Positions 16,753 to 37,900 of a DNA stretch of 46,479 nt are shown piece after piece (position 1 is the first letter of the stretch; every line of letters starts with the position of its first letter). A program made the translations under genes and the position numbers. The notes under the pieces are model-generated. The model was not told the DNA's origin. It made no database searches and worked only from the letters and a program-made list of their open reading frames with translations. Origin of the DNA: a virus; the IMG/VR virus record IMGVR_UViG_3300022927_000037, positions 1 through 46,479 of that record; one strand, written 5' to 3'.

Positions 16753-17241
16753 TTAGAAGTTCAATACACAATAATCTGGTTGTACTTCAACCTGGATATT
16801 AACGGCTGTACCATCATCATCCCAGTTATAATCACCCCAATTGATTGAAGTAATTAAAGCTCCTTTGATCACCCATTCTGAAACAATATCACCTACAGGA
16901 CCTAATACGTTAAATGTTAAATCTTTCTTGTAGAAATCAGAATAACCATCTCTACCTGTTACTGATTCGTGGTGTAATCTTAACCATTCAATGGCAGCTT
17001 GAGCACCTGAAGGAGTAATTGGGTCAAATAATGTAAACTGGATAGTACCCCATGTTGTTTTACCTTTAACAAAACGTTGAACGTTAATATGATTTAAAGG
17101 TACAGTTCCTTGTGATACGTTAACAGCACCTACTTGCTTAAGTAAGTAAGAAGGGAAACCATCAATATACAATACAAATCTATTAGATTGTTTTGGTTCG
17201 AATGCTGTGAAAAATATTTCGTTTGGATCTAATACTGCCAT
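16753..17241 (-). CDS. gp19: Tail tube protein, T4 gp19-like
   Basis: This 162-residue protein would form the inner tube of the contractile tail, through which DNA passes. It has the gp19 pattern: an N-terminal strand after FFTAFEPKQSNRFVLYIDGF (split across 10-30), GKTTWGTIQFTLFDPITPSGA (about 79-99), and a C-terminal pair of strands (SEWVIKGALITSINWGDYNW, about 122-141, then VNIQVEVQPDYCVLNF). The Gly-Ala-Ile/Leu-Ile-Thr strand followed by a W-G-D turn is characteristic of T4 tube proteins (163 residues in T4). It follows the sheath gene, carries its own late-type element 26 bases upstream, and ends before a strong terminator, so a strong independent transcript is likely for this abundant protein. 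Confidence 0.93.
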   Translation of the reverse strand: MAVLDPNEIFFTAFEPKQSNRFVLYIDGFPSYLLKQVGAVNVSQGTVPLNHINVQRFVKGKTTWGTIQFTLFDPITPSGAQAAIEWLRLHHESVTGRDGYSDFYKKDLTFNVLGPVGDIVSEWVIKGALITSINWGDYNWDDDGTAVNIQVEVQPDYCVLNF

Positions 17242-17292: not shown

Positions 17293-19008
17293 TTATGCAG
17301 GGAATGTAGCACCTGTAGGTAAGATGTTAAAGTCGAGGTAAATAAACTCAGCTGTTTTAGTTGGTTGGATAAATATCTGACCAATTAACTGATTTCTGTC
17401 AATCACATCTGGTGTGTTATTTGTATCATCCATGATCACTTTAAACGCATACAAACCTTGTCTTTGTTGAACACTTTCCAAATATGGATTTACTTGTGCT
17501 AAGAAATTATTTCTTGTAGCAATTGTATTTTGTTCAAACACCAAGTTTTGAGCAACTTGTGAAATGTATGATTTAAGTTGAATTAATAATCTTCTAACAT
17601 TTACTCTATCTAAAGCACTTGCTCTAGTTTGTAATGTTTTCTGACCATATACTACAACTCCAGTTCCAGGGAATGTGGCAATTGGGTTTACTTTATTTGT
17701 ATATAAAGTATCTCTATCAGTTGAGTTTAGTTTTTGTTCTGCGCGAATTACTTGTCCTAAACCACCTCTATTAATACCCGCCGGGGCGAACCAAGGCTCA
17801 CTTACACTGTCATTATACGCGTATACACCACCTATAACAGCGGATGCTGGCACCCATACTTGTTTGCCTGTATCTGGGTCAATTACTTGACACCATGGCC
17901 AATATGAAGCAGCGTATGATGTATTTCTTGAAGATGCTTGAGTATTTACTGTAGCAACTGAAGAATTATATGGTACTAAATCTAATACTAATAAACTATC
18001 TCCTCTTACTTGAGTGTTATTAATCATATTAGTACATTGTGAAGTCATTCCTGAGTTAAATAGACCTGGAGCTAATAATACATTAAATACATAATCATCT
18101 TGATTAGATAATAAACTAATCATATCATCATAATCATCAGGAGAAACACCTTGAGTATTATTTGAATCGATATTATCGTAGAAATTAGCAGCTCCAATAA
18201 AATCTCCTGTAGCACTACCAAATGAACCACTTTGGGCTGATGGGATAAATCCTACAAATTCTGGTTTTGCTATTCCATTATTATCGAAATAATTTAATGT
18301 AGCTCCTGGAACAGAATCGATTCTAATATATCTAGAAGCGTTTCTATATGAACCCGTAATTTCTACTTGGTTTTTAGTTGGGTTGTAATTTTCAACTTGA
18401 TCACCAATTACTTTTGAAACAAAGTTATCAGCTTTTGGGTCTAAAGATAACCCAGTCCAAGTTTCTAATACGACTTTATTATTTGTAGTATCATCACCTC
18501 TTCTTACTAAAAGATCAAAAGTACCTGAAGAAGTTGAAGGGTTTGAAATTTCCCATCTAATGTTATCTACAGATCCACTTGCTAGTGATCCTGAAGCATC
18601 TTCAGGTCCTTCACTATTCATTAAAGCTCCTTCACTAATAGTTTTAATAACTAAAGAAGAGGATGTGTTACTACCACTAATTTCATTGTTATCATTTTCG
18701 TCTACACAAGTTGCTGCTGTGTATGAACCTGTAACTACTCTAGCTACTAAAAGAGACTCACCACCATTATTAAAATAGTTGTAAGCAGCGATTGAAGTAA
18801 AGTAAGTGTAAGTGTCACTACCACTATCTACGGTTGTTCCAAATCTAGAAGAATAATCGCTATAAGAAGTAACTACTGTAGGGATTTCTACAGGTCCTTT
18901 TACTGTTGGACCGATGATAGCTGCCCCAACCGTTACGGGTTGTTGGCTAACAAAAGATGAATCATTTTCTCTTGCTAATACACCGGGAGATACTAGAGTT
19001 TCTGCCAT
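17293..19008 (-). CDS. gp18: Contractile tail sheath protein, T4 gp18-like
   Basis: This 571-residue protein would form the contractile sheath around the tube. The N-terminus (MAETLVSPGVLARENDSSF) is the typical sheath start, with the 'SPGV' turn that forms the linker strand. GAAIIGPTVKGPVEIPTVV (about 28-46) and YSSRFGT follow the family pattern. The C-terminal domain has LNSTDRDTLYTNKVNPIATFPGTGVVVYGQKTL (split across 430-465), VNVRRLLIQLKSYISQVAQ (about 471-489) and the final strand FIYLDFNILPTGATFPA, which joins neighbouring subunits in known sheaths. The middle ~200 residues, rich in Ser/Gly/Asn, are the variable protruding domains. The length is a little below T4 gp18 (659). A late element is 23 bases upstream. 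Confidence 0.94.
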   Translation of the reverse strand: MAETLVSPGVLARENDSSFVSQQPVTVGAAIIGPTVKGPVEIPTVVTSYSDYSSRFGTTVDSGSDTYTYFTSIAAYNYFNNGGESLLVARVVTGSYTAATCVDENDNNEISGSNTSSSLVIKTISEGALMNSEGPEDASGSLASGSVDNIRWEISNPSTSSGTFDLLVRRGDDTTNNKVVLETWTGLSLDPKADNFVSKVIGDQVENYNPTKNQVEITGSYRNASRYIRIDSVPGATLNYFDNNGIAKPEFVGFIPSAQSGSFGSATGDFIGAANFYDNIDSNNTQGVSPDDYDDMISLLSNQDDYVFNVLLAPGLFNSGMTSQCTNMINNTQVRGDSLLVLDLVPYNSSVATVNTQASSRNTSYAASYWPWCQVIDPDTGKQVWVPASAVIGGVYAYNDSVSEPWFAPAGINRGGLGQVIRAEQKLNSTDRDTLYTNKVNPIATFPGTGVVVYGQKTLQTRASALDRVNVRRLLIQLKSYISQVAQNLVFEQNTIATRNNFLAQVNPYLESVQQRQGLYAFKVIMDDTNNTPDVIDRNQLIGQIFIQPTKTAEFIYLDFNILPTGATFPA

Positions 19009-19059: not shown

Positions 19060-19308
19060 TCATCGTTTTACGAATTCACCTGTTTCAATATTTATATTTC
19101 CTTCACCATATTTTTCTTGTAACTTTTGACCAGTATCTTCAGATTTTTTGATCAACATTTGTAACATTTCTGTTAATTTATCTTTTTGTAACTCTAAACT
19201 TTGAATTTCTACTTCAATACTACCAAATTTGGTAATAATATCAGCTCTTTCATTATTCAAATCTTCTAATTGTTGTAACTCTTCTTGTGTTAGAAATATT
19301 TTGTCCAT
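19060..19308 (-). CDS. Small coiled-coil protein upstream of the tail sheath
   Basis: This 82-residue protein is almost entirely predicted coiled coil (QEELQQLEDLNNERADIITK and onward to LIKKSEDTGQKLQEKY, residues 7-66), ending in a short Gly/Asn tail. No family is recognised. It sits between the glycosyltransferase cassette (26 bases upstream) and the tail sheath gene. It may be the last cistron of the cassette transcript or a small structural or assembly protein of the tail. There is no signal peptide or membrane segment. Confidence 0.7.
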   Translation of the reverse strand: MDKIFLTQEELQQLEDLNNERADIITKFGSIEVEIQSLELQKDKLTEMLQMLIKKSEDTGQKLQEKYGEGNINIETGEFVKR

Positions 19309-19334: not shown

Positions 19335-20528
19335 TTAAAGAACCCTATTAATAGATTCAATTACTCTTTGTGGTGTTATTGTTTTAGTACATTCAAAATG
19401 TCTATCTGTGTCTTTATGATTAGGACACCATTCCCAATCACCAGGATTTAACCATTCTTTATTAAAACATCCTGTACAAACATTTTCATCGTAATTAAAT
19501 ACGCGTTCACAATCTAAAAATTCACTATAGGGTTGGCTAAATCCTGAAATTAGGATTACTTTAGTACCAATAGCCCAGGATAACCAAGATAAACCACTAC
19601 CTACACCAATAAAAGCATCGGCGTATTTAATATCTACCATTCTGTCCTCAATAGGATAATCACCTGTTTTATCAATTACTCCTTTTAAAGTACCTCCTAA
19701 TTTAGAATCATGCCAATCATCACCTAAACGTTCTTTAGTAATCATTACTACTTTATATCCTTGATCTTTCAAATAGTCAACTATTGCTTGCCAACCACCA
19801 GGATAATTCCAATATTTAGCATGTGCTGAAGCATGAGGGGCGATAATTACATATTTACCTTCAATTTGTTGTCCTTTACTAGGAATTGTAATTTTTGGTT
19901 TAACTTCTCGATATTTTAATCCTAATATTTCTGTTGTTGTTTGGCCTAAAGGGTGTTGTTTAAAGTCAATAGGTATTTTATGTTTTACTACTTCTCTATT
20001 TTCATCATAAAACCAACCAATATTATACATAGCATATAAATTAAATACTTCAGTACCTGGTTCTACAAATTCAATTTCTGGGTATTCTTTTTCGAACCAT
20101 TCATTGTGGAAAGTAGATACTATAAGCTCACATTGATGTTTTACTCTAAAATCATTTACATTAGCAAACCAAGCTAATGTATCTCCAATAGCATCAGATT
20201 CTAAATGAATGTATACTCTTTTTCCTTTAGCATTATAATTTTCAGAGAATTCTAATTGGTCTGTTTTTAAATTATATGCTTCTACTCTCCAATCTTTAAA
20301 ATATTTAATATTAGGAGCAGTCCACATATTATTGCTGATAACTGTTTCATAGATAACATCATTGCTTTTTCTATCTATAAATAAAACTCTATATTTACAA
20401 TCTTTATCCCCATTAATATGTAGTTTAGCTCCTCCAATAAAACTAACAGTAAATGTATTTTGAGGTTCTTTAAAAGGTAAATTTAATTGTTTTAAATTAT
20501 TATAGTTATTTATTAAAACTTCTTTCAT
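19335..20528 (-). CDS. Protein O-heptosyltransferase of the TibC/AAH (BAHT) family
   Basis: This protein would transfer an ADP-heptose-type sugar onto serine hydroxyls of a protein. Residues ~25-100 form a beta-strand N-terminal domain like that of TibC. Residues ~104-335 are the GT-B catalytic part with HLESDAIGDTLAWFANV (108-124), LYAMYNIGWFYDENRE (164-179), HASAHAKYWNYPGGWQ (232-247), GVIDKTGDYPIEDRM (283-297) and GVGSGLSWLSWAIGTKV (308-324). The C-terminus carries four cysteines, C351 and C354 (CTGC), C368 (EWCPNH) and C380 (FEC), in the spacing of the iron-binding finger that defines this family in TibC. The enzyme class is known to hyperglycosylate Ser-rich beta-helical autotransporters. 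No autotransporter is present here; the Ser/Thr-rich collagen-like fibres encoded just upstream are the obvious candidate substrate. It overlaps the preceding gene by 4 bases. Confidence 0.85.
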   Translation of the reverse strand: MKEVLINNYNNLKQLNLPFKEPQNTFTVSFIGGAKLHINGDKDCKYRVLFIDRKSNDVIYETVISNNMWTAPNIKYFKDWRVEAYNLKTDQLEFSENYNAKGKRVYIHLESDAIGDTLAWFANVNDFRVKHQCELIVSTFHNEWFEKEYPEIEFVEPGTEVFNLYAMYNIGWFYDENREVVKHKIPIDFKQHPLGQTTTEILGLKYREVKPKITIPSKGQQIEGKYVIIAPHASAHAKYWNYPGGWQAIVDYLKDQGYKVVMITKERLGDDWHDSKLGGTLKGVIDKTGDYPIEDRMVDIKYADAFIGVGSGLSWLSWAIGTKVILISGFSQPYSEFLDCERVFNYDENVCTGCFNKEWLNPGDWEWCPNHKDTDRHFECTKTITPQRVIESINRVL

Positions 20529-21232
20529 ATATCAAATTGTTTATTAAATTCTTTTTTATATCGTAAATCATCTATAAAAGCCTGGCCATAAGGTAAAATA
20601 TTTCCCCTATCAAAGTTGTGGATTTGTAAGTACCATCTCATATTATAATGATATTGATTATGAGGACGTGCTTTAGCTCTTTCAGTACCTAATATTTCAT
20701 TATTCCAAGGATCTTCATTAGGAAACATAATTGACTTTAAATACTCAACATTCCATATAGCAGCATTATGTGTTAATAACCATACGGAGTCTTGTTTCAT
20801 TTTAAGAACTCTATTATTTTTAATAAATTTATCGGTAGGTTCAAAGTCATAACCCCACCAATGTAGTTTTTCATGAATTCGAAGACAATCGGCATTTTCA
20901 TTATCCATAAATTCTATAAATTCAGGCATAATGTCATTAATTGATCTTTCAGGCCACATATCATCACACATTAATAAAACATACTTTGTATTAATTTTAT
21001 CTAAAGCGTAAATTAATTTATTTGAAAAATCATATTTAGTATAATCGGGTTTGTTGATGTTTAAAGGTATAAAGTTTTTATACTCATAATCATAATTTTT
21101 ACTATCAGAAATAACATATATGTCTAAATCAAGACCACTAAGTAATTCCCAACTTAACCCTAATCCTTCCCAACAATTTGAATAACTATCACACGTAGGA
21201 ACTAAAACTGATATTTTATCTTTTAAATTCAT
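20525..21232 (-). CDS. Glycosyltransferase, GT-A fold (GT2-like)
   Basis: This is a 235-residue nucleotide-sugar transferase of the GT-A type. The N-terminal strand KISVLVPTCDSYSNCW (6-21) is the usual nucleotide-binding start, and YVLLMCDDMWPE (84-95) ends in the acidic DD pair that replaces DxD for metal and donor binding. WWGYDF and NAAIWNVEYLKSIMFP (about 166-181) match the acceptor side, with a Trp-containing motif. No membrane segment is present, so it acts in the cytosol. It overlaps both neighbours (17 bases upstream, 4 bases downstream), as in a tightly coupled operon. The donor sugar cannot be told from sequence; extension of a protein-linked glycan is a plausible role in this context. 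Confidence 0.8.
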   Translation of the reverse strand: MNLKDKISVLVPTCDSYSNCWEGLGLSWELLSGLDLDIYVISDSKNYDYEYKNFIPLNINKPDYTKYDFSNKLIYALDKINTKYVLLMCDDMWPERSINDIMPEFIEFMDNENADCLRIHEKLHWWGYDFEPTDKFIKNNRVLKMKQDSVWLLTHNAAIWNVEYLKSIMFPNEDPWNNEILGTERAKARPHNQYHYNMRWYLQIHNFDRGNILPYGQAFIDDLRYKKEFNKQFDI

Positions 21233-22169
21233 TGTAAATATCCATTAATTCTTTTGTTCTATTATACCATGATAATTCTTTACCAGTATTAATTGCTTTT
21301 TCTTTATATAAATCCCAATTTTTTATAATATCTTTTAATCCTTTATCCATTTCAAAAACATCCCGAGGAGCTCTCCAAGCACCATGAAAATCAGTAGCAT
21401 GTTCCCAATTAGCGATAATAGGCAAACCCGCAGCTGCTGCTTCAATCATTGTTAAATTTGGATGTCCTGCTTCTAACATAGTAGGATGAACAAATATATC
21501 ATGGTCATGGTATAATTCTAGTAATTTAGTATTAGGAGTATCAAAAACCAAATTTAGTTTAGGATAATTTAACATCCATAAATGACCATTAAAGAAATTT
21601 TTATTGTTAGAAGGTCCGGCTATGGTAATTTCTAAATCATTCATCATAGCTAACCCTAAACCATAAGTAAATCCCTTTCTATCATATGTTTTATCTCCTC
21701 CTAACCCATTATTAGCTATCATTAATAACTTAGGTTTTTCTGGTTTGGGATGAAAGGGGTTGTTATAAAACTCATCTGTGTTTACACCATGAGGAAAATA
21801 GACACATTTAGGGTGATCAAAATAATCAACTAGCCATTTAGCCGGCATTAGAGAAATTAAAGATCCTTCAATAGCTTTTAAATTTTCTTTATATACATGA
21901 GAATCTTTACCAAAATGTAACACATGATGATCATGTAATTGATAAATGTAAGGAACCCCTCTTTCTCCTAAACCATTTGCTAAATTAGCTACATGGCAAT
22001 GAACAATATCAAAATCATCAGAATTAATATGAGCCGCCATTTTATGGGTAGATTCATGCCCTAAGGCTCTTTGATTTACTTCAAATTCCCAAATAATTTT
22101 TTCAATTGCCCCCCAATTTTTAGGGGGAATACTTAACCCACATCCGGGGTCTACATGGCATATTTTCAT
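21216..22169 (-). CDS. Glycosyltransferase, GT-B fold (GT4-like)
   Basis: This 317-residue retaining-type transferase has two Rossmann-like halves. The N-terminal half opens MKICHVDPGCGLSIPPKNWGA with the Pro/Gly-rich loop found in GT4 enzymes that bind acceptors (the 'GGxER'-like region), then DIVHCHVA and IYQLHDHHV. The C-terminal half has PKLLMIANNG, LEITIAGPS and FVHPTMLEAGHPNLTMIEAA (227-245) with two glutamates nine residues apart (E233, E243) where the family's E-x7-E motif lies, so the spacing is slightly unusual. No membrane segment is present. It overlaps the FkbM gene by 4 bases and the next transferase by 17. Sugar specificity is unknown. Confidence 0.85.
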   Translation of the reverse strand: MKICHVDPGCGLSIPPKNWGAIEKIIWEFEVNQRALGHESTHKMAAHINSDDFDIVHCHVANLANGLGERGVPYIYQLHDHHVLHFGKDSHVYKENLKAIEGSLISLMPAKWLVDYFDHPKCVYFPHGVNTDEFYNNPFHPKPEKPKLLMIANNGLGGDKTYDRKGFTYGLGLAMMNDLEITIAGPSNNKNFFNGHLWMLNYPKLNLVFDTPNTKLLELYHDHDIFVHPTMLEAGHPNLTMIEAAAAGLPIIANWEHATDFHGAWRAPRDVFEMDKGLKDIIKNWDLYKEKAINTGKELSWYNRTKELMDIYNEFKR

Positions 22170-23056
22170 TTTAAAAAGGCTATATTATTCATTCCATTAT
22201 TGTCATCTACCCAAATGTTATACCCATTAAAATGTAAAAAATCTTCTAGTTTTTGGGTATTAATTTTATTTACTTTTTCATAAATAATTACTTTAGGTTT
22301 TTTTATTTTGTCAAAATCTAAAGCCATTATAAGTTGATCATCCATTCCTTCAACATCAATATGTAACCAATCTAAATCATTAAAATTATTTTCTATTAAT
22401 AATTCATTAATCCCTATTGATTCTTTTGTTACTTCATTTACCTTATTAAAAAATTTTAATACATGATCTTTATCAATAGAATTTGTGTGACCAGTATTGT
22501 CTCCTTCTCCTCCTTCGTAAAATTTAACTTGACCTCCGTTAGGAGTAATTAATTTATTTACTAAAGTAATATTTTTATATTTACTATAATGTTTACTTAA
22601 TCTAGAAAAAGCAGATGTTGATGCTTCTACTAATAACAAATTTGAAAAGTTATTTTGGTGAAATAAATGTACCCATTCACCTGATGTTCCATCGTTAGTA
22701 CCAATAGCTACTCCTTTAGTTTTATCTTTTGTAGCACACCATATATCAAAAGCAATTTCTGATTGAGTTCCATGTTCAATGCTATTCCATTTAGTACGTC
22801 CTATCTCTTTTCCTTTAGAAGTTTTAATAATTAAAGTACATCCATCAAACCAATCAAAACTACACCAATGACCTATACCTATTTGATTTTGGTAAATTTC
22901 TTGGTTATTGTAGGTATCTATAATCTCTATTGTAAAAGGTAAATATTCTTTTGGGAGAAAAAATAAAATATCTTTTTTTATTTCAACATACATTTGGGTC
23001 GATGGATGAGAAATATCTTGGGCTTTTTTAAGTTTTATGTCTAAAAACCGATTCAT
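22166..23056 (-). CDS. FkbM-family methyltransferase with an extra N-terminal beta domain
   Basis: This is a SAM-dependent methyltransferase, typically acting on sugar hydroxyls. The catalytic part spans about 112-296, with SAM motif I GVAIGTNDGTSGEWVHLF (115-132), acidic loop LLVEAS (141-146) and the FkbM hallmark DWLHIDVEGMDDQLIMAL near 233-250. The first ~95 residues are a separate beta-rich piece (TIEIIDTYNNQEIYQNQIGIG, split) that looks related in pattern to the N-terminal domain of the O-heptosyltransferase in this cassette and to residues ~573-645 of the large transferase. That similarity is by eye. A role in capping or methylating a fibre glycan fits the neighbours; no experiment is implied. 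The ATG overlaps the upstream stop by one base. Confidence 0.85.
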   Translation of the reverse strand: MNRFLDIKLKKAQDISHPSTQMYVEIKKDILFFLPKEYLPFTIEIIDTYNNQEIYQNQIGIGHWCSFDWFDGCTLIIKTSKGKEIGRTKWNSIEHGTQSEIAFDIWCATKDKTKGVAIGTNDGTSGEWVHLFHQNNFSNLLLVEASTSAFSRLSKHYSKYKNITLVNKLITPNGGQVKFYEGGEGDNTGHTNSIDKDHVLKFFNKVNEVTKESIGINELLIENNFNDLDWLHIDVEGMDDQLIMALDFDKIKKPKVIIYEKVNKINTQKLEDFLHFNGYNIWVDDNNGMNNIAFLK

Positions 23057-25740
23057 TATATTTTTTTATCTCCTTTAATATTAGTTTCACTTACTTTTTT
23101 ATCTATTAAACTATATCCTTTAGCTTGAAATACTAAAGGTTCTTTATAAAATCCTTTAGGTTCTTGTCTAAAATTATTAGTTACCCATAAATCAAAAGCA
23201 TCCCATTTTGAATTATTAATTTTACTATGTACTTCATGAATTTTACTACCTCTAATTAAATAAGCATGAGCATCAGTAAACATTCCAGCATCAATATGAG
23301 TTTCATATTCGTTAAATGTTTCATAATTGTGGGCAAAACTAAAGAAAGTATAGTCTTTTTCTTGAGAAATTTTAATAGCTTCTTTTAATTTATTAACAAA
23401 TTCATTATGGTCAGTTAATAATAAGGCATCACATTCAAAAAATAAATAAGTAGTATTATTATCTGGAGGGCAAGATAAAATAGCATCAGTATGGGCTTTA
23501 AAACAACCATAATGTCCTGGGGCTAGTTTATAGTATCCAGGTTCTAATTGAACATCATTAGGTCTGTTACAAGTATCTTTAGGGGGTAAATCCGTGTAAG
23601 GAGTATTAATAACTTGTGTGTATTCAATTCCATCATATTCACCTAATTTACTAATAGATTCAATAGAGCGTTGTTCTCTTTCTTCTTCAGGTTGAGTTAA
23701 TAAATGTACAATTTTTATTTTTTGATCAGACTCATAATTTGTTCTATCCCCTTTCCACTTAAAACTACCATTATTAGGCATTTTATTTAAGAAATAATCT
23801 TTATTTAAATTAAATACGTGTTCCTTAATAAAATCACCTGTGTTTAAATCGGTAATATGGAATTTTACTATTGTGTTATCATCCAATGAATAAGGAACCA
23901 TATCCCAGAAATAGTATTTACCTGTAACTTCTAAATTTCTATCAATAATTATTTCACCATTTCTTTCTACAGTATATTGAATTAATTTACTTTCTTTAGC
24001 ATTTGAAATTGTAATCCATGGACAGAATCTGCCTGGGACATCTGTAGGAAGGATTGTATAGTATTCAACCATTGAATAATCTTCAAAATCAAAATACTTT
24101 TCGGCATCGGATTCAAATTTTTCTCTAGGCTCAATATGGTTATTTGGGTAATCTTTAAACAAATGATAATACATATTTTCAATACCATTTGATTCAGATC
24201 CACAAGTTACCATTAAATTATCGTAAGCTTGAGCTGATTGAATATCAGGGGTTTGTCTTAATATTGCATTTGGGGTTGCACTAAAGAAATATGTGTAGTA
24301 ACATTTACCTTCTTGTGCTTCAAATTCACCAAAGAATGTATCGTTTGTATTTAAAATTTCTGAAATATAATTAATATAATCTTCGTCTTTTAAAATATAA
24401 TCATAATTAACAAAGTGAAGTTTATTAATACCTAAATTTTTGGCAAATGTTGCTGGGTTTCTAAAACTAGTATAACAAGCGGGTCCGTGATATCTATCAT
24501 TTCCCTCACCCTTTAAATTTAAATAAGTATCATATAAATCTGTATAAAAATTAAAACTAGAATAGAATGTATGTTTAGTTAAAATATTATTTGAATCATA
24601 AAACACATAATCTACCATTTCTTGTAATTCTTTAGGTACAGGAGCATGTGCTGAGATTATTAATTTTCTTCCATCACGTTTTAATGAATTAATACAATCT
24701 TTAGTAGTTTGTACAATAGCATCGGTTACAGGATATGTACATATTACATATGCTTCTTCGGATGGAGTAATAATAGTATTACCTTCTAAGTGTTGTTGGA
24801 TTAATTTTTTATTCTTATCAAGATCATTAAAATCAAGATAATTTACACTAGGATAAGAATCAAAATAATTTTGATATACTTCTAAATTATATAACAATTG
24901 AGGAATTTGATAGGATAATGCTTCACGAATTACTAAGGGCATAGTTTCTTTATCATGATTGCTTCCTCTAGATGTAAATAAAAATAAATCCATTGATTGA
25001 TAAAAATTATCTACATCTGTACGTTCATTCCACCATGTAACATTATCAGGTTTATTTTCCATTAATGGACGCCAATAATGTTCAAAGTTACTTGCTTGAT
25101 TACCTACACAATGAAATTCATATTCAGGAAGCATTTTAGCATATTCAAAAAATTCAGCTTGATTTTTTCTAGGTGTAAATAAACCAATATGTAAAATGTG
25201 TTTTTTATTAGGATCTAATCCTAACTTTTGTAATGCTTTTGTTCGATCAGGACGTTCAATATATTCAATAGGATATTCAACTAATACTTTAGGGATATCA
25301 ATATCTTTATATTGATCAATTTGCCATTGAGATACAAACATAAACATATCTGGGAAGAATTGTTTATTGTCTGTATTAAAAGATGAATCGTGTGATGTTT
25401 CTACAATTTTGTAAGAGCGATCTGTATGGTATACTTGTTCCATTATTTCTCTAGGGAATCCTGCCAACTCGGGGATTTCTTCTAGATGTATAATGTCGGG
25501 TTGAATTTGATCAATTAATGATAAAATTTCAGTTTTGTCTTCTCCTAAAGTGTAAAATTTTTCTTCAGGTAAAAGTGCTTTAATTTTATTTTTAGTAACA
25601 ACTAAAACACCTCCTGTAACGTCAGTCCATTCAACTAAATGAATTTCGTATTCGTTTTTAAGTAATTCTATTTTTTTTGTTAAATATTGAGGTAGACCTC
25701 CAGTAGATAAATGTGGAGCTACACAAAGTAATTTTTTCAT
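23056..25740 (-). CDS. Multidomain glycosyltransferase (GT4 + central GT-like domain + GT25-like C-terminus)
   Basis: At 894 residues this is about twice the size of a usual transferase. Domain 1 (1-325) is a GT-B GT4 enzyme: KLLCVAPHLSTGGLPQYL start, HILHIGLFTPRKNQ (181-194) and ETMPLVIREAL with E-x7-E (E265, E273). Domain 2 (about 330-530) begins YVICTYPVTD and has HFVNYDYILKDEDYI (442-456), suggestive of a GT-A donor site; its family is not recognised. Residues ~573-645 are a beta domain similar in pattern to those in the FkbM and heptosyltransferase proteins. Domain 3 (about 675-850) resembles family GT25: GHYGCFKAHTDAIL (742-755) matches the G-x-x-G-C-x-x-x-H signature and LFFECDALLL (766-775) stands where GT25 has an E-D-D metal motif. 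GT25 includes LPS and collagen galactosyltransferases. It is the first gene of the cassette, with a late-type element 39 bases upstream. Confidence 0.8.
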   Translation of the reverse strand: MKKLLCVAPHLSTGGLPQYLTKKIELLKNEYEIHLVEWTDVTGGVLVVTKNKIKALLPEEKFYTLGEDKTEILSLIDQIQPDIIHLEEIPELAGFPREIMEQVYHTDRSYKIVETSHDSSFNTDNKQFFPDMFMFVSQWQIDQYKDIDIPKVLVEYPIEYIERPDRTKALQKLGLDPNKKHILHIGLFTPRKNQAEFFEYAKMLPEYEFHCVGNQASNFEHYWRPLMENKPDNVTWWNERTDVDNFYQSMDLFLFTSRGSNHDKETMPLVIREALSYQIPQLLYNLEVYQNYFDSYPSVNYLDFNDLDKNKKLIQQHLEGNTIITPSEEAYVICTYPVTDAIVQTTKDCINSLKRDGRKLIISAHAPVPKELQEMVDYVFYDSNNILTKHTFYSSFNFYTDLYDTYLNLKGEGNDRYHGPACYTSFRNPATFAKNLGINKLHFVNYDYILKDEDYINYISEILNTNDTFFGEFEAQEGKCYYTYFFSATPNAILRQTPDIQSAQAYDNLMVTCGSESNGIENMYYHLFKDYPNNHIEPREKFESDAEKYFDFEDYSMVEYYTILPTDVPGRFCPWITISNAKESKLIQYTVERNGEIIIDRNLEVTGKYYFWDMVPYSLDDNTIVKFHITDLNTGDFIKEHVFNLNKDYFLNKMPNNGSFKWKGDRTNYESDQKIKIVHLLTQPEEEREQRSIESISKLGEYDGIEYTQVINTPYTDLPPKDTCNRPNDVQLEPGYYKLAPGHYGCFKAHTDAILSCPPDNNTTYLFFECDALLLTDHNEFVNKLKEAIKISQEKDYTFFSFAHNYETFNEYETHIDAGMFTDAHAYLIRGSKIHEVHSKINNSKWDAFDLWVTNNFRQEPKGFYKEPLVFQAKGYSLIDKKVSETNIKGDKKI

Positions 25741-25949: not shown

Positions 25950-28900
25950 TTATAGGTATCCTGGGAATTGGTAATCTGTTCCACTTACATTAATAATTAA
26001 CCATACATCTGGTGGTCCTAAGAATTCATTAGGAGGTCCTGCACTACCAATTTGTGTATCCGGTGGTCCTACTGGGTTAAGTGCTACCCCTCCACCCGCA
26101 TTATCAACTCTTAATGCGCCAGTTCCTGATGCTGGTTGAATATGTAATGATTGGTTTGTATCTGGGACAGTTGGTCCTAATCCTAGAGTTCTTTGGGAAT
26201 AAAAATAATCATTAATTCCTTCTACAAATTGTAACATTAATACACCACCACAATATATCTGGAATTCATCTAATGTATTAAATCCAATGAATGTATTAGT
26301 ATCACCAGAGTGGTATATACGATTACCTAAATATAAATCTGTAGTAATCTGGGCGTTACCGTTTACATCTAACCTATAAGATGGAGAAGTATCATTAATA
26401 CCTAATCTTGTATTCGTTATATCAGTATATAAGAATGGTACACTTTGTACTGTTGTACTAGAATCAGTTCTAACTAAGTAATTAGGTGAATTAACAAATG
26501 CACCACCACTAATACCACTAGTACCATTAATACTTGTACCTGAAGTACCTGGGGTACCTGATGAACCTGAAGTACCATTAGCACCTGAAGTACCACCAGC
26601 ACCATTTTGTCCACTAGTACCTGATCCACCGGATGAACCTGAAGTTCCTGCTACACCTGAGGTACCTATATTACCACTTGAACCATTAGTACCTGATGTT
26701 CTAGATAATCCTGATTGTCCGTTGTTACCACTTGAACCAGATGATCCTGAAGTACCACTCACACCTGATGTTCTGTTAGCACCATTAACTCCATTAACAC
26801 CATTCGAACCTGATGAACCTGAAGTACCTGATACTCGTGATAATCCGTTTCCTCCATTAACACCATTCGAACCTGAACTTCCTGAAGTACCACTTACAGC
26901 ACTTGTTCTATTAGCACCATTAACTCCAGCAATACCATTTGAACCTGATGATCCTGAAGTACCGGAAACCGCTGATAACCCGTTTCCTCCATTAACACCA
27001 TTGTTACCTGAAGAACCTGAACTTCCTGAAGTACCACTTACAGCACTTGTTCTATTAGCACCGTTAGCTCCAGCAACACCATTTGAACCGGTTGAACCAC
27101 TAGTTCCTGATACACCTGAAGTTCTACTAGCACCGTTAGCTCCGTTGTTACCTGATGAACCTGATGAACCTGTACTACCACTTGTTCCTGATACTCGTGA
27201 TAAACCACTTGTACCATTATTACCTGAAGTACCAAGTGTACCTGAACTACCTGCTGAACCTGAAGTTCTGCTTAATCCTGATTGTCCGTTGTTACCACTT
27301 GAACCTGAAGTACCTGATGAACCACTTGTACGTGATAATCCTGAAGCGCCATTAGCACCGTTATTACCAGATGAACCAGATGAACCTGATGTTCCACTTA
27401 CACCTGATGTTCTATTAGCACCGTTAGCACCATTAACACCGTTTGAACCTGATGAACCTGAAGTACCACTTACAGCACTTGTTCTATTGGCACCATTATT
27501 ACCAGATGTACCTGATGAACCAGTTGAACCTGAGGTACCTGATACTCGTGATAATCCGTTTCCTCCATTATTACCATTTGAACCTGTACTACCTGATGTT
27601 CCACTTACACCTGATGTTCTATTAGCACCATTAGCTCCATTTGAACCACTTGTACCTGTTGAACCACTTGTACGTGATAATCCTGAAGCTCCACTAGCAC
27701 CGTTAATACCTGAAGTACCTGAAGAACCTGAACTTCCTGAAGTACCACTTACAGCACTTGTTCTATTAGCACCATTAGCTCCAGCAACACCATTTGAACC
27801 AGTACTACCTGATGTTCCGCTTACACCTGATGTTCTAGATAAACCATTAGCTCCATTATTACCCGATGTACCTGATGAACCAGTTGAACCTGAAGTACCT
27901 GATAGTCTGGATAATCCACTAGTACCATTGTTACCTGAGGTACCAAGTGTACCACTTGAACCAGCTGAACCTGAGGTTCTAGATAATCCTGATTGTCCGT
28001 TATTACCGCTTGAACCTGTACTACCTGTTGAACCTGAAGTACCTGATACTCGTGATAATCCGTTTCCTCCATTAACACCATTCGAACCTGATGAACCTGA
28101 AGTACCACTTACGGCTGAGGTTCTATTAGCACCATTAGCTCCATTTGAACCTGAACTACCTGAGCTACCACTTGTTCCTGATAATCTGCTTAATCCTGAT
28201 CCTCCGTTGTTACCTGAAGAACCTGTACTACCGCTTGAACCTGATGAACCACTTGTTCTACTTAAAGCCGAAGCTCCATTAGCACCGTTATTACCAGTTG
28301 AACCAGATGAACCTGTACTACCTGAAGTACCACTTACAGCACTTGTTCTATTAGCACCATTAGCACCTGATGTACCTGATGAACCAGTTGAACCTGAGGT
28401 ACCTGATAATCTACTTAATCCACTAGTACCGTTATTACCTGATGTACCTAGTGTACCTGAACTACCGGCTGAACCACTTGTTCTAGATAATCCTGATTGT
28501 CCATTATTACCTGTTGAACCTGTTGAACCAGTTGAACCAGATGTTCCACTTGTTCTACTTAATCCTGATCCTCCGTTAGCACCGTTTGAACCAGCTGAAC
28601 CTGAACTTCCTGAAGTACCACTTACAGCACTTGTTCTATTAGCACCATTAGCACCTGATGAACCAGCTGAACCTGAACTTCCTGAAGTACCAGATAATCT
28701 ACTTAGACCTGATCCTCCATTATTACCATTTGAACCTGTACTACCACTAGAACCAGATGAACCACTTGTTCTACTTAAAGCCGAAGCTCCATTAGCACCG
28801 TTATTACCAGATGAACCTGATGAACCGGTTGAACCTGAAGTACCACTTACGGCTGAAGTTCTATTAGCACCATTTACACCTGCTGAACCTGTACTACCTG

Positions 28901-31900
28901 AAGTACCACTTGTTCTAGATAATCCACTAGTACCGTTATTACCTGAAGTACCAATTGTACCTGAGCTACCAGCTGAACCTGAAGTTCTACTTAGTCCTGA
29001 TTGTCCGTTATTTCCTGAAGAACCTGTTGAACCTGAGCTACCACTTGTACGTGACAATCCTGAAGCTCCGTTAGCACCGTTTGAACCTGCTGAACCTGTA
29101 CTACCTGAAGTACCACTTACAGCTGAAGTTCTGTTAGCACCATTAGCACCGGCTGAGCCTGAAGAACCTGAACTTCCTGAAGTACCAGATAATCTACTTA
29201 GACCTGATCCTCCATTATTACCATTTGAACCGGTTGAACCTGAGCTACCAGCTGAACCTGAAGTTCTGCTTAGTCCTGATCCTCCGTTAGCACCGCTTGA
29301 ACCTGATGAACCGGTTGATCCTGAGGTACCACTTACAGCTGAAGTTCTGTTAGCACCATTAACTCCTGATGAACCTGATGAACCTGTACTACCACTTGTT
29401 CCTGATAGTCTACTTAATCCACTTGTACCATTGTTACCTGAGGTACCAATTGTACCACTTGAACCTGCTGAACCTGAAGTTCTGCTTAGTCCTGATTGTC
29501 CGTTGTTACCACTTGAACCAGTTGAACCTGAACTACCAGCCGAACCTGATGTTCTGCTTAATCCTGATCCTCCGTTAGCACCGTTTGAACCTGATGAACC
29601 AGTTGAACCTGAAGTACCACTTACTGCTGAGGTTTTATTTGCTCCGTTTACACCAGCTGAACCTGCTGAACCTGTACTACCTGAAGTACCACTTACGGCT
29701 GAGGTTCTATTAGCACCATTAACACCATTTGAACCTGATGAACCTGTTGTACCTGATGTAGTACTTACACCACTAGTACCTGCTACACCTGCTGTACCTA
29801 TTGTACCGCTTGAACCTGCTGAACCACTTGTGCGTGATAATCCTGATTGTCCATCATTACCTGAAGAACCTGTTGAACCAGTAGATCCAGATGAACCTGA
29901 ACTTCTGCTTAGACCTGATCCTCCATTAATACCAGCAGAACCTGTACTACCTGAGCTACCACTTGTTCCTGATAATCTGCTTAATCCTGATCCTCCGTTG
30001 TTACCTGAAGAACCTGTTGAACCAGTACTACCTGATGTACCACTTGTGCGTGATAAACCACTAGTACCATTATTACCTGAAGTACCTATTGTACCTGAAG
30101 AACCAGCTGAACCACTCGTACGTGATAATCCACTTTGTCCATTATTACCTGAAGAACCTGTACTACCAGATGAACCTGAACTACCGCTTGAACGTGATAA
30201 TCCACTTCCTCCGTTATTACCATTTGAACCTGCTGAACCTGATGATCCAGATGTACCACTTACTGCTGAAGTTCTATTAGCACCATTAGCACCGGCTGAA
30301 CCAGAAGAACCTGTACTACCTGAAGTACCACTTACTGCTGATGTTCCAGCAATTCCGTTTGTACCTTGTGAACCATTCGAACCAGTTGTTCCTGATGTTG
30401 AACTTAAACCTGAAGTACCTGCTACACCGGCTGTACCAATTGTACCTGAGCTACCAGCTGAACCTGAAGTTCTGCTTAGTCCTGATTGTCCGTTGTTACC
30501 ACTTGAACCAGTTGAACCGGTTGAACCAGATGTTCCACTAGTACGAGAAATTCCTGAAGCGCCATTAGCACCATTTGAACCAGATGAACCAGTTGTACCT
30601 GATGTTGAGCTTATACCACTTGTACCAGCGATTCCATTAGTTCCTTGAGAACCATTACTACCTGTAGTACCTGATGTGTTACTAACACCACTAGTACCGG
30701 CTATACCGTTTGTACCTTGTGAACCATTTGAACCTGTTGTACCACTTGTAGAGCTTTCACCTGAAGTTCCAGCTACACCGGCTGTACCAATTGTACCACT
30801 TGAACCTGCTGAACCTGAAGTTCTAGATAAACCACTTTCTCCATTATTACCTGAAGAACCGGTTGAACCTGTACTACCTGATGAGCCACTTGTACGTGAT
30901 AAACCACTTCCTCCGTTATTACCATTTGAACCTGCTGAACCTGATGATCCAGATGTACCACTTACTGCTGAAGTTCTATTTGCACCGTTAATACCTGCTG
31001 AACCTGAAGAACCTGTTGAACCAGAAGTACCACTTACTGCTGATGTTCCAGCAATTCCGTTTGTACCTTGTGAACCTGAACTACCTGTTGTACCTGAAGT
31101 AGTACTTATACCACTAGTACCTGCTACACCGGCTGTACCAATTGTACCACTTGAACCTGCTGAACCTGAAGTTCTAGATAATCCTGATTGTCCGTCATTT
31201 CCTGAAGAACCTGTACTACCCGTTGAACCTGAGGTTCCTGAAGTATTACTTTCGCCACTAGTACCAGCAACTCCATCAGTTCCTTGAGAACCTGATGAAC
31301 CTGTTGTACCTGATGTTGAACTTATTCCTGAAGTACCTGCGATTCCGTTTGTACCTTGAGAACCGTTACTACCTGTTGTACCAGAAGTATTACTAATACC
31401 ACTTGTGCCTGCAATTCCATTTGTACCTTGTGAACCGTTTGAACCAGTTGTACCTGAGGTAGAGCTTTCACCTGAAGTACCTGCTATACCTGATGTACCA
31501 ATTGTACCGCTTGAACCTGCTGAACCTGAAGTTCTGCTTAGTCCTGATTGTCCGTTATTTCCTGAAGAACCGGTTGAACCTGTTGAACCTGAACTACCGC
31601 TTGAACGTGATAATCCACTTCCTCCGTTATTACCATTTGAACCTGATGAACCTGTACTACCTGAAGTACCACTCACGGCACTTGTTCTATTAGCACCATC
31701 TACACCAGCTGAACCTGATGAACCTGTTGAACCAGAAGTACCACTTACTGCTGATGTTCCAGCTATACCATTTGTACCTTGTGAACCGTTACTACCTGTT
31801 GTACCAGAAGTAGTACTTTCGCCACTTGTTCCAGCTACACCTGAGGTACCAATTGTACCACTTGAGCCAGCTGAACCACTTGTTCTAGATAAACCGCTTT

Positions 31901-34900
31901 CTCCATTATTACCTGAAGAACCTGTACTACCTGTTGAACCTGAACTACCTGAAGTAGTGCTTTCACCTGAAGTACCGGCATCTCCTGAAGAACCTACTGT
32001 ACCTGTAGATCCTGATGTACCACTTGTATTACTTGCACCTGAAGTACCTGCTTCACCTGAACTACCAACTGTACCAGTTGAACCTGAAGTACCTGAAGTA
32101 GCACTTTCACCACTTGTACCAGCAACTCCACTAGTACCAATTGTACCACTTGAACCAGCTGAACCTGAAGTTCTAGATAATCCTGATTGTCCTGCGTTAC
32201 CTGAGGAACCAGTTGAACCTGTACTACCTGATGAACCGCTTGTAGCGCTTTCACCTGACGTACCTGCATCTCCTGTAGTACCTACTGAACCTGCTGAACC
32301 ACTTGTTCCAGAAGTAGCACTTTCACCACTTGTACCCGCAACTCCATCAGTTCCTTGAGAACCATTACTACCTGTTGTGCCTGAGGTTGAGCTTATACCT
32401 GATGTACCGGCAATTCCATTAGTTCCTTGTGAACCATTTGAACCTGTTGTACCTGAGGTACTTGATATACCACTAGTACCTGCTACACCTGCTGTACCTA
32501 TTGTACCGCTTGAACCTGCTGAACCACTTGTACGTGATAATCCGCTTTGTCCATCGTTACCGCTTGAACCTGTACTACCTGTTGAACCACTTGTTCCAGA
32601 AGTAGCGCTTTCACCTGAGGTACCTGCAACTCCATCGGCTCCTTGAGAACCTGATGTACCTGTTGTACCTGATGTTGAGCTTACACCACTAGTACCAGCG
32701 ATTCCATTTGTACCTTGTGAACCATTTGAACCGGTTGTGCCTGAAGTACTTGAAATTCCTGAAGTACCAGCAACTCCATCAGCTCCTTGAGAACCGGCTG
32801 AACCACTTGTACCACTTGTTTCACTATTTCCTGAAGTTCCAGCTACTCCTGAAGTACCTATTGTACCTGAGGAACCAGCTGAACCACTTGTTCTAGATAA
32901 ACCGCTTTCTCCATTATTACCTGAAGAACCTGTCGAACCTGTTGAACCTGAGCTACCACTTGTAGCGCTTTCACCTGAAGTACCAGCAACTCCATCAGTT
33001 CCTTGAGAACCTGATGAACCTGTTGTTCCAGATGTACTGCTTATACCTGAGGTACCTGCGATTCCATTAGTTCCTTGAGAACCATTTGAACCTGTTGTAC
33101 CAGAAGTACTACTAACACCGCTTGTACCTGCAATTCCGTTTGTACCTTGTGAACCGTTTGAACCAGTTGTACCTGAAGTGGAACTTTCACCACTAGTACC
33201 AGCAATTCCACTAGTACCTATTGTACCTGATGAACCCGCTGAACCTGAAGTTCTTGATAATCCGCTTTGTCCCGCATTACCTGAAGAACCTGTTGAACCT
33301 GTTGAACCTGAACTACCTGAAGTAGCACTTTCACCTGAAGTACCATCATCTCCTGAAGAACCTACTGAACCTGTTGAACCTGAAGTACCTGAAGTAGAAC
33401 TTTCACCACTTGTACCAGCAACTCCATCAGCACCTGCACTACCATTTGAACCAGTAGTACCTGATGTGTTACTAACACCACTAGTACCGGCTATACCGTT
33501 TGTACCTTGTGAACCATTTGAACCGGTTGTTCCTGAAGTTGCACTTTCGCCACTAGTACCAGCCACACCTGATGTACCAATTGTACCTGATGAACCAGCT
33601 GAACCTGAAGTTCTTGATAAACCACTTTCTCCATTATTACCTGAAGAACCTGTGCTACCTGTTGAACCGCTTGTTCCAGAAGTAGCGCTTTCACCTGAGG
33701 TACCTGCAACTCCATCGGCTCCTTGAGAACCATTTGAACCTGTTGTACCACTAGTTGATGAAATACCACTTGTACCTGCTATACCGTTTGTACCTTGTGA
33801 ACCGTTACTACCTGTTGTACCTGAGGTACTTGATATACCACTTGTACCAGCAACTCCATCAGCTCCTTGAGAACCGGCTGAACCACTTGTACCACTTGTA
33901 TTACTTTCACCACTTGTTCCTGCTACTCCACTAGTACCAATTGTACCTGATGAACCAGCTGAACCGCTTGTTTCGCTTAATCCTGATTGTCCTGCATTTC
34001 CTGAAGAACCAGTTGAACCAGTTGAACCTGAGCTACCACTTGTAGCACTTTCGCCACTTGTTCCTGCATCTCCTGTAGTACCTACTGAACCTGCTGAACC
34101 TGAAGTACCTGAAGTAGCGCTTACACCACTTGTGCCAGCAACTCCATCAGCTCCTTGAGAACCATTTGAACCTGTTGTACCTGAGGTACTTGAAATTCCT
34201 GAAGTACCAGCAATTCCGTTTGTACCTTGTGAACCATTTGATCCAGTAGTACCTGATGTAGCACTTTCGCCACTTGTTCCTGCGTTTCCACTAGTACCTA
34301 TTGTACCTGAAGAACCTGCAGTACCTGAAGTTCTGCTTAAACCACTTTGTCCATTGTTTCCTGATGAACCGGTACTACCTGTTGAACCAGAAGTTCCTGA
34401 TGTTTTACTTTCACCACTTGTACCAGCAACTCCATCAGCTCCTTGAGAACCATTTGAACCTGTTGTACCTGAGGTGTTAGATACTCCTGAAGTACCTGCT
34501 ACTCCATCAGCACCTGCACTACCATTTGAACCTGTTGTTCCTGATGTAGCGCTTTCACCTGATGTTCCTGCAACTCCATCAGCACCTTGTGAACCGGATG
34601 AACCGCTTGTACCTGATGTTTCACTATTTCCTGAAGTTCCAGCATTACCTGAAGTACCTATTGTACCTGAAGAACCTGCTGAACCACTTGTACGGGATAA
34701 TCCGCTTTGTCCGTTATTACCGCTTGAACCAGTACTACCTGTTGAACCAGAAGTTCCTGATGTTGCACTATCTCCACTAGTTCCAGCATTACCTGAAGAA
34801 CCTACTGTACCTGTTGAGCCACTTGTACCGCTTGTAGCACTTTCTCCACTTGTACCTGCTACTCCATCAGCACCTGCAGAACCGTTAGATCCTGTTGTAC

Positions 34901-37900
34901 CTGAAGTACTAGATACTCCTGAAGTACCAGCAACTCCATCAGCTCCTTGAGAACCATTTGAACCTGTTGTACCACTTGTAGCGCTTTCACCTGAAGTTCC
35001 AGCTACTCCTGAAGTACCTATTGTACCTGAGGAACCAGCTGAACCACTTGTTTCGCTTAATCCTGATTGTCCTGCGTTACCGCTTGAACCTGTGGAACCT
35101 GTTGAACCTGAGGTTCCAGAAGTAGCACTTTCGCCTGAAGTACCTGCTATTCCATCTTCACCTGCACTACCATTTGAACCAGTAGTACCTGATGTGTTAG
35201 AAATTCCACTTGTACCAGCAACTCCATCGGCTCCTTGTGAACCTGAAGTACCTGAGGTACCAGAAGTAGCGCTTATACCACTTGTACCAGCAACACCATC
35301 TTCACCTGAAGAACCTGTGCTACCTGATGTACCACTTGTGTTTGATTCACCTGAAGTACCAGCTACACCGCTTGTGCCGATTGTACCTGAACTACCAGCA
35401 GAACCGCTTGTAGACGATAAACCACTTTGTCCATCATTTCCTGAAGAACCTGTTGAACCTGTACTACCTGATGAACCGCTTGTAGCACTTTCACCTGATG
35501 TACCTGCTATTCCATCGGCTCCTTGAGAACCGTTTGAACCTGTTGTACCACTTGTTGAGGAAATTCCACTTGTACCAGCAACACCATCAGCTCCTTGAGA
35601 ACCGGATGTACCACTTGTACCTGAAGTAGCACTTATACCACTTGTACCAGCAATTCCATCGGCTCCTTGTGAACCTGATGTGCCGCTTGTACCGCTTGTT
35701 TCACTATTTCCAGAAGTTCCAGCTACACCACTTGTACCTATAGTACCTGATGAACCAGCTGAACCTGAAGTTTCGCTTAATCCTGATTGTCCAGCGTTAC
35801 CGCTTGAACCCGTTGAACCGGTTGAGCCTGAGCTACCGCTTGTAGCACTTATACCACTTGTACCAGCAATTCCATCGGCTCCTTGTGAACCTGATGTACC
35901 TGTTGTACCTGATGTTGAACTTATACCTGAGGTACCTGCTATTCCATCAGCTCCTTGTGAACCTGATGTGCCGCTTGTGCCGCTTGTTGAAGAAACTCCG
36001 CTTGTACCTGCTACTCCATCAGCTCCTGAAGAGCCTGATGTACCAGTTGTACCTGAAGTTTCGCTATTTCCTGATGTTCCAGCTACTCCTGAAGTACCTA
36101 TTGTACCACTCGAACCAGCTGAACCACTTGTTTCGCTCAATCCACTTTGTCCTGCATTTCCTGAAGAACCTGTTGAACCTGTTGAACCACTACTTCCTGC
36201 AGTAGCACTTTCACCTGAAGTACCTGCTATACCTGAAGTACCAGAAGTACCATCTTCACCTGATGAACCTGATGTTCCGCTTTCACCTGAAGTACCTGAT
36301 GTTCCTGATTCACCTGAGGTGCCAGCAACTCCTGTTGTACCAGAGGTACCATCTTCGCCTGATGAACCTGATGTTCCGGATTCGCCACTTGTACCAGCAA
36401 CTCCACTAGTACCTATTGTACCTGATGAACCAGCTGAACCACTTGTTTCGCTTAATCCGCTTTGTCCCGCATTACCTGAGGAACCTGTACTACCTGTTGA
36501 GCCTGAACTACCGCTTGTAGCACTTATACCACTTGTACCAGCAACTCCATCAGCTCCTTGAGAGCCTGCTGAACCTGTTGTACCTGAAGTGGCACTTATA
36601 CCTGAGGTACCTGCAACTCCATCAGCTCCTTGAGAACCGTTTGAACCTGTTGTACCACTTGTTGAAGAAACTCCACTAGTACCGGCAATACCATCAGCTC
36701 CTGAGGAACCAGATGTACCTGTTGTACCTGAAGTTTCACTATTTCCTGATGTTCCTGCAACTCCACTAGTACCAATTGTACCGCTTGAACCTGCTGAACC
36801 TGAAGTTTCGCTTAATCCTGATTGTCCTGCGTTACCGCTTGAACCTGTGGAACCTGTTGAACCACTACTTCCTGCAGTAGCACTTTCACCTGAAGTACCT
36901 GCAGCTCCAGTTGTTCCTGAAGTACCATCTTCGCCTGAAGATCCACTTGTACCTGATTCGCCACTTGTGCCTGAAATACCTGATGTTCCTGATTCACCTG
37001 AAGTTCCTGAAGCTCCTGTTGTACCTGATGTGCCATCTTCACCTGATGAACCAGATGTACCTGATTCGCCACTTGTTCCAGCTACTCCTGAAGTACCAAT
37101 TGTACCCGAGCTACCTGCTGAACCTGAAGTTTCGCTTAATCCTGATTGTCCTGCGTTACCTGAGGAACCTGTTGAACCGGTTGAACCTGAACTACCTGAA
37201 GTAGCGCTTATACCACTAGTACCAGCAACTCCATCATTTCCTTGTGAACCAGAAGAACCTGAAGTACCTGATGAACCACTAAATCCACTAATACCATCAT
37301 CTCCAACACTACCATTTGAACCAGTAGTACCTGAAGTAGCACTTATACCTGAGGTACCTGCTACTCCATCAGCTCCTTGAGAACCTGATGTACCGCTTGT
37401 ACCGCTTGTTTCACTATTTCCTGAAGTACCAGCTACACCGCTTGTGCCGATTGTACCTGAACTACCAGCAGAACCTGAGGTTTCACTTAATCCGCTTTGT
37501 CCTGCGTTACCTGAGGAACCAGTTGAACCGGTTGAACCTGAACTACCGCTTGTAGCACTTTCACCACTTGTTCCTGCTATTCCATCTTCGCCTGAAGATC
37601 CACTTGTACCTGATTCACCTGAAGTACCTGCTACTCCAGTTGTACCTGAAGTACCATCAGCTCCTGATGAACCATTTGTTCCAGATTCACCTGAGGTACC
37701 AGCAACTCCAGTTGTTCCTGAAGTACCATCTTCACCAGAAGAACCTGATGTGCCTGATTCACCTGAAGTTCCAGCTACTCCTGAAGTACCAATAGTACCA
37801 CTTGAGCCAGCTGAACCTGATGTTTCACTTAATCCGCTTTGTCCTGCATTTCCTGAAGAACCTGTTGAACCTGTACTACCTGATGAACCGCTTGTAGCGC

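Follow-up and report, generated by a model that had tools for sequence, protein, structure and literature searches.

An O-heptosyltransferase gene of the Aah/TibC branch lies among the late tail genes of a 46,479-nucleotide viral stretch (IMG/VR record IMGVR_UViG_3300022927_000037, positions 1 to 46,479; referred to as the window), and its product probably heptosylates serines of the phage's own collagen-like fibre by using an NDP-heptose as donor. The 397-residue protein is best described as the phage form of a known enzyme whose substrate is probably new.

Gene arrangement

The window record, a viral fragment of 46 kb, carries T4-like genes for replication and structure. The genes around the enzyme are given in the order in which they stand in the row:

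40255..42039 (minus strand): second collagen-like fibre, 594 aa, GTG start (PF01391, E 6e-40; PHROG tail fibre, E 1.7e-47)
25950..40157 (minus strand): giant collagen-like tail fibre, 4735 aa (PF01391, 1242 bits; PHROG tail fibre families)
23056..25740 (minus strand): GT4-type glycosyltransferase with a large C-terminal part, 894 aa (PF00534, E 1.4e-11)
22166..23056 (minus strand): FkbM-type methyltransferase, 296 aa (PF05050, E 8.5e-9)
21216..22169 (minus strand): probable GT4-type glycosyltransferase, 317 aa (PF00534, E 1.7e-6)
20525..21232 (minus strand): probable glycosyltransferase, 235 aa (weak TIGR04440 match, E 5e-5, under the cut-off)
19335..20528 (minus strand): Aah/TibC-type O-heptosyltransferase, 397 aa (TIGR04414 and predicted structure), with an N-terminal beta barrel, a GT-B catalytic domain and a four-cysteine finger
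19060..19308 (minus strand): small conserved protein, 82 aa (conserved order)
17293..19008 (minus strand): contractile tail sheath (PF04984, E 6e-12; phrog_23, E 6e-76)
16753..17241 (minus strand): tail tube (phrog_4542, E 8e-26)

A few bases are shared between the enzyme gene and the next gene, and the 235-aa glycosyltransferase gene overlaps both of its neighbours; with such overlaps or direct contacts among the enzyme genes, the row resembles a single operon. The order fibre, glycosyltransferase, glycosyltransferase, enzyme, 82-aa protein and sheath is common to the relatives: the 894-aa and 317-aa glycosyltransferases are conserved partners in the neighbourhood, the latter in the same order, and the 82-aa protein stands between enzyme and sheath in most cases. 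An open frame of 1308 aa opposite the fibre gene (26722-30648, plus strand) is most likely a by-product of the fibre repeats.

Family and fold of the enzyme

The protein had been taken in an earlier note, made from the sequence of the window, for a TibC-like enzyme with a beta N-terminus, an assignment to be given up if the family HMM matched poorly. The match to TIGR04414, the Aah/TibC model, was strong (314.7 bits, E 7.8e-94; curated cut-off 200 bits), which together with the open reading frame itself excludes chance or a reading-frame artefact as its source; the plus strand at 19335-20528 carries no open frame. The motif SDAIGDTLAW, also named in that note, occupies residues 111-120. Among PDB sequences searched with phmmer, TibC was the only match (E 5e-54, enzyme residues 22-395).

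Structure prediction against TibC, which the note had proposed as a check, gave the same assignment. The model, built with AlphaFold2 on an alignment of 60 phage relatives (pLDDT 93.7), matched TibC (4rap) best among solved structures (Z 40.2, rmsd 2.4, 358 residues, model residues 23-397), and this match spans the N-terminal barrel too. The full-length fold is common to the phage enzyme and to TibC/Aah (TIGR04414; PDB 4rap, 4rb4) at an identity of about 30%. The next PDB entry other than TibC reached Z 19.8, and other GT9 enzymes, including the LPS heptosyltransferases, reached Z 17-20 over the catalytic part alone; WaaC/WaaF (GT9, PF01075) share the GT-B catalytic fold at Z 17-18 only and lack the N-terminal barrel.

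The match of the enzyme to PF01075, the LPS heptosyltransferase family, exceeds its cut-off, and this distant kinship (WaaC and heptosyltransferase II folds at Z 17-18), the several glycosyltransferases in a row and the fact that some phage glycosyltransferases act in this way would agree with a cluster that alters the LPS core or capsule of the host during infection, for example to block superinfection. We regard such a role as improbable: the TibC-type barrel, which lies outside the coverage of the LPS enzymes, and the finger are present, the TIGR04414 score is far above that of any LPS model, and the gene is placed with the late tail genes and close to the fibre.

No match to PF03797 (autotransporter) or PF16168 (AIDA) was obtained in the window record or in 41 other enzyme-bearing virus records, in line with the note's statement that no autotransporter is encoded in the window. 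The two bacterial genes that were checked adjoin AIDA or autotransporter genes. Bacterial autotransporter heptosyltransferases (BAHT) have a partner autotransporter, whereas the phage enzyme has none; it is therefore placed in enzyme family TIGR04414 and not among the BAHT in the narrow sense.

Active site, finger and thumb

TibC activity requires an aspartate, a lysine, an arginine and a tryptophan, and the cysteines of TibC are required for iron binding and activity (PMC4358343). In the alignment, D110, K230, R286 and W305 of TibC correspond to D116, K238, R296 and W315 of the phage enzyme. The finger cysteines had been located correctly (C351, C354, C368 and C380) and align with Cys-339, 342, 358 and 370 of TibC, which makes the finger a putative iron-binding site. 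The catalytic Asp, Lys and Trp and the four cysteines are invariant in 48 viral representatives, and the cysteines also in eight bacterial ones.

Departures from TibC were found at T226, which is S234 in the phage enzyme, and at the stereoselectivity residue Pro-300, which is a glycine (G310). At the adenine-contacting position R286, most other viral members, all of them in branches outside that of the window, have Val, Ile, Leu, Thr or Ala, and nucleotide specificity may differ there. The change at Pro-300 and the loss of Arg-286 would favour a viral branch of the same fold, still with a protein substrate, that has drifted to an NDP-sugar other than heptose. This appears quite unlikely, given that Arg-296, Lys-238 and Trp-315 are kept in the window and that HldE-like genes adjoin the enzyme gene in other phages.

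The thumb of TibC, a beta-hairpin with a hydrophobic tip, joins dimers into a dodecamer. Its Phe-Val tip is not kept in the phage enzyme; in the branch of the window the segment is longer and has a predicted helix (residues 271-277), and in most of the other viral members it is short and of the type DGYMGN. The thumb that builds the TibC dodecamer is, according to the model, remodelled in the phage enzyme, and with the tip lost the oligomer state may differ.

Collagen-like fibres and their link to the enzyme

The 4735-aa fibre contains at least 1208 Gly-X-Y triplets and comprises 1285 Ser, 698 Thr and only 27 Pro; within the triplets, Ser occupies 389 X and 629 Y positions. TibC itself glycosylates serine, not threonine. 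Enzyme-associated fibres in the relatives are likewise mostly Ser/Thr-rich and nearly proline-free. Four enzyme loci that at first seemed to be without such a fibre (L009, L014, L015 and L199) were dismissed as exceptions when it was found further upstream. A second, Gln/Pro-rich collagen-like fibre of GPQ type follows the Ser/Thr-rich one in L009 (1-2958), L014 and L483 (1044-3599).

The association was analysed in a control set in which relatives picked by the tail sheath alone were pooled with loci found by the enzyme (39 non-redundant loci). A collagen-like gene was present in all 18 sheath-sharing loci with the enzyme, as against 2 of 21 without it (Fisher p 3e-9, relatedness ignored); three of the 18 were reclassified as positive once their whole contigs had been read, and L391, a locus with the enzyme, was excluded. 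On whole contigs, the counts at the Pfam cut-off were 10/10 with and 0/20 without the enzyme. Shared ancestry among the loci weakens the Fisher test. On the sheath tree, the enzyme and collagen traits each change at least eight times; supported branches provide only three independent differing pairs, all in the expected direction and too few for significance. The link may therefore partly reflect one cassette inherited whole, and joint gain and loss of such a cassette, the simplest alternative, would still suggest a functional unit.

The enzyme-collagen pattern recurs in another lineage, that of the isolated Microcystis phage Mel-JY01, where a collagen-like frame is followed closely downstream by a glycosyltransferase-methyltransferase-enzyme fusion of 1226 aa. 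This frame (about 1771 aa) runs across the two ends of the record (PP395634, L489; L082:2-3049) and was missed in the annotation, antisense frames having been entered instead, and the fusion with the TibC-like part is annotated only as "methyltransferase FkbM".

In one viral branch of the enzyme no collagen-like gene was found nearby; a Ser/Thr-rich tail protein of 2000-2500 aa adjoins the enzyme gene instead, and many members carry an HldE-like pair. The persistence of the enzyme there would suit an Aah/TibC-type enzyme whose substrate is a different phage protein, for example of the baseplate, the sheath or a non-collagen fibre, with the collagen-like fibre as a mere neighbour. This seems unlikely, since in the branch of the window the fibre is present in every enzyme contig that was checked whole and is nearly absent without the enzyme. 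The idea in the earlier note of a collagen-like fibre as substrate is supported by gene linkage; the 4735-aa fibre is the proposed substrate and the 594-aa fibre a possible second one.

Putative genes for the heptose donor

On 43 contigs of another phage branch than that of the window, many of them close kin, an HldE-C-like nucleotidyltransferase gene follows the enzyme gene within 0-4 bases or with a short overlap, and an HldE-N-like kinase gene is usually next; L167:11161-12277 is an example of the pair directly after a TibC-like gene. On four more contigs the pair stands 0.3-0.4 kb from the enzyme gene. Immediately past the pair, a Ser-rich collagen-like gene runs convergently in L097, L101, L113 and L117, so that enzyme, donor genes and fibre stand together. 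The best models for the pair were rfaE_dom_II (95.6 bits) and rfaE_dom_I (91.4 bits), both below their curated cut-offs, and it is a possible phage supply of ADP-heptose. Its position beside the enzyme gene points to an NDP-heptose donor.

No HldE-like pair was detected on contigs of the window's branch, except for an end fragment on one contig, and the donor would there come from the host or from DNA beyond the contigs. In a 636-kb phage (LR756504; L258), 27 kb separate the TibC-like gene from a gene (430182-430640) for a GmhA-type isomerase over the curated cut-off.

Viruses have been reported to encode functional NDP-heptose enzymes (PMC11461863). HldE-like kinase and nucleotidyltransferase genes are known in phages (phrog_7878), cyanophages included, and a pair of this type adjoins the TibC-like gene in one branch. 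No TibC-like gene was detectable in the kinase-bearing records GU071095 and KU686194 or in 30 other cyanophage and marine records, whereas the window has a TibC-like gene without the kinase. Some of those records with the HldE-N-like kinase also have a nucleotidyltransferase. Such kinases in phages without a detectable TibC-like gene, like the sub-cut-off scores of the HldE-like pair, count against the reading of fibre heptosylation.

Distribution and phylogeny

Relatives were found on 163 viral stretches in one scan and on 300 in a second scan started from another branch; only four records of annotated phages contain one. Genomes over the cut-off numbered 7 of 349 for Pseudomonadota and 1 of 345 for Bacteroidota, and the contig of the single Bacteroidota match has the phage gene order. 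In the tree, viral and bacterial proteins lie on separate sides with moderate supports (76-78), the viral enzymes forming a group apart from the bacterial TibC/Aah proteins with a support of 78. A recent gain from a host chromosome was considered and is not supported by the tree separation and the one phage-like Bacteroidota match. A Bacteroidota host is suggested by kin of the sheath and of PhoH in Flavobacterium phage immuto. Two contigs (L085 and L086) from bins assigned to Winogradskyella and Flavobacteriales genomes show the gene order of the phages and probably represent phage DNA in these bins. Of two flavobacterial bins, one showed HldE-C over the cut-off and the other did not.

Aah/TibC-named phage proteins and an HldE-like PHROG are already present in public databases. 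One of these, A0A6J5SVC1 from an uncultured Caudovirales phage, shares 40% identity with the enzyme of the window (rmsd 2.2) and is longer (924 aa versus 397 aa); no paper on its function was found in the open literature. A search of open, non-subscription papers likewise returned none that joins phage TibC-like or HldE-like genes to collagen-like fibres.

Proposed mechanism and implications

From the family, the fold, the conserved residues and the gene linkage we infer a course that comprises sugar, substrate, iron, timing and benefit to the phage. The donor would be an NDP-activated heptose, most likely ADP-heptose, supplied by the host in the window's branch and by the phage's own HldE-like kinase and nucleotidyltransferase in another. 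Asp-116 would act as the base, the phosphate would be held by Lys-238, and adenine and heptose by Arg-296 and Trp-315; the four-cysteine finger would bind iron and aid dimerisation of the enzyme. Either ahead of virion assembly or in its course, serines in the Gly-X-Y repeats of the collagen-like fibres that the phage itself encodes would receive heptose on their hydroxyl groups, and the neighbouring glycosyltransferases and the FkbM methyltransferase might lengthen and cap the sugar. As the enzyme travels with a giant serine-rich collagen-like fibre, these phages probably sugar-coat their own fibres. The shape of the acceptor counts against this reading: TibC acts on beta-helices, which differ in form from a collagen triple helix. 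With several glycosyltransferases in the locus, another of them could be the one that acts on the fibre.

In animals, hydroxyproline serves the collagen triple helix, and glycosylated collagens gave rise to the idea that sugar stabilises a triple helix without hydroxyproline. Tentatively, and with some doubt, the giant near-proline-free fibres might have their serines heavily heptosylated by a dedicated enzyme, the sugar taking over the role of hydroxyproline in the triple helix, with some phages supplying the activated heptose themselves.

If heptosylation of the fibre is true, protein O-heptosylation would extend beyond bacterial adhesins to a virus and to a collagen-like fold. It would offer a testable role for the NDP-heptose enzymes of viruses (PMC11461863) and would explain the presence of Ser/Thr-rich, proline-poor collagen-like fibres in some phage lineages.
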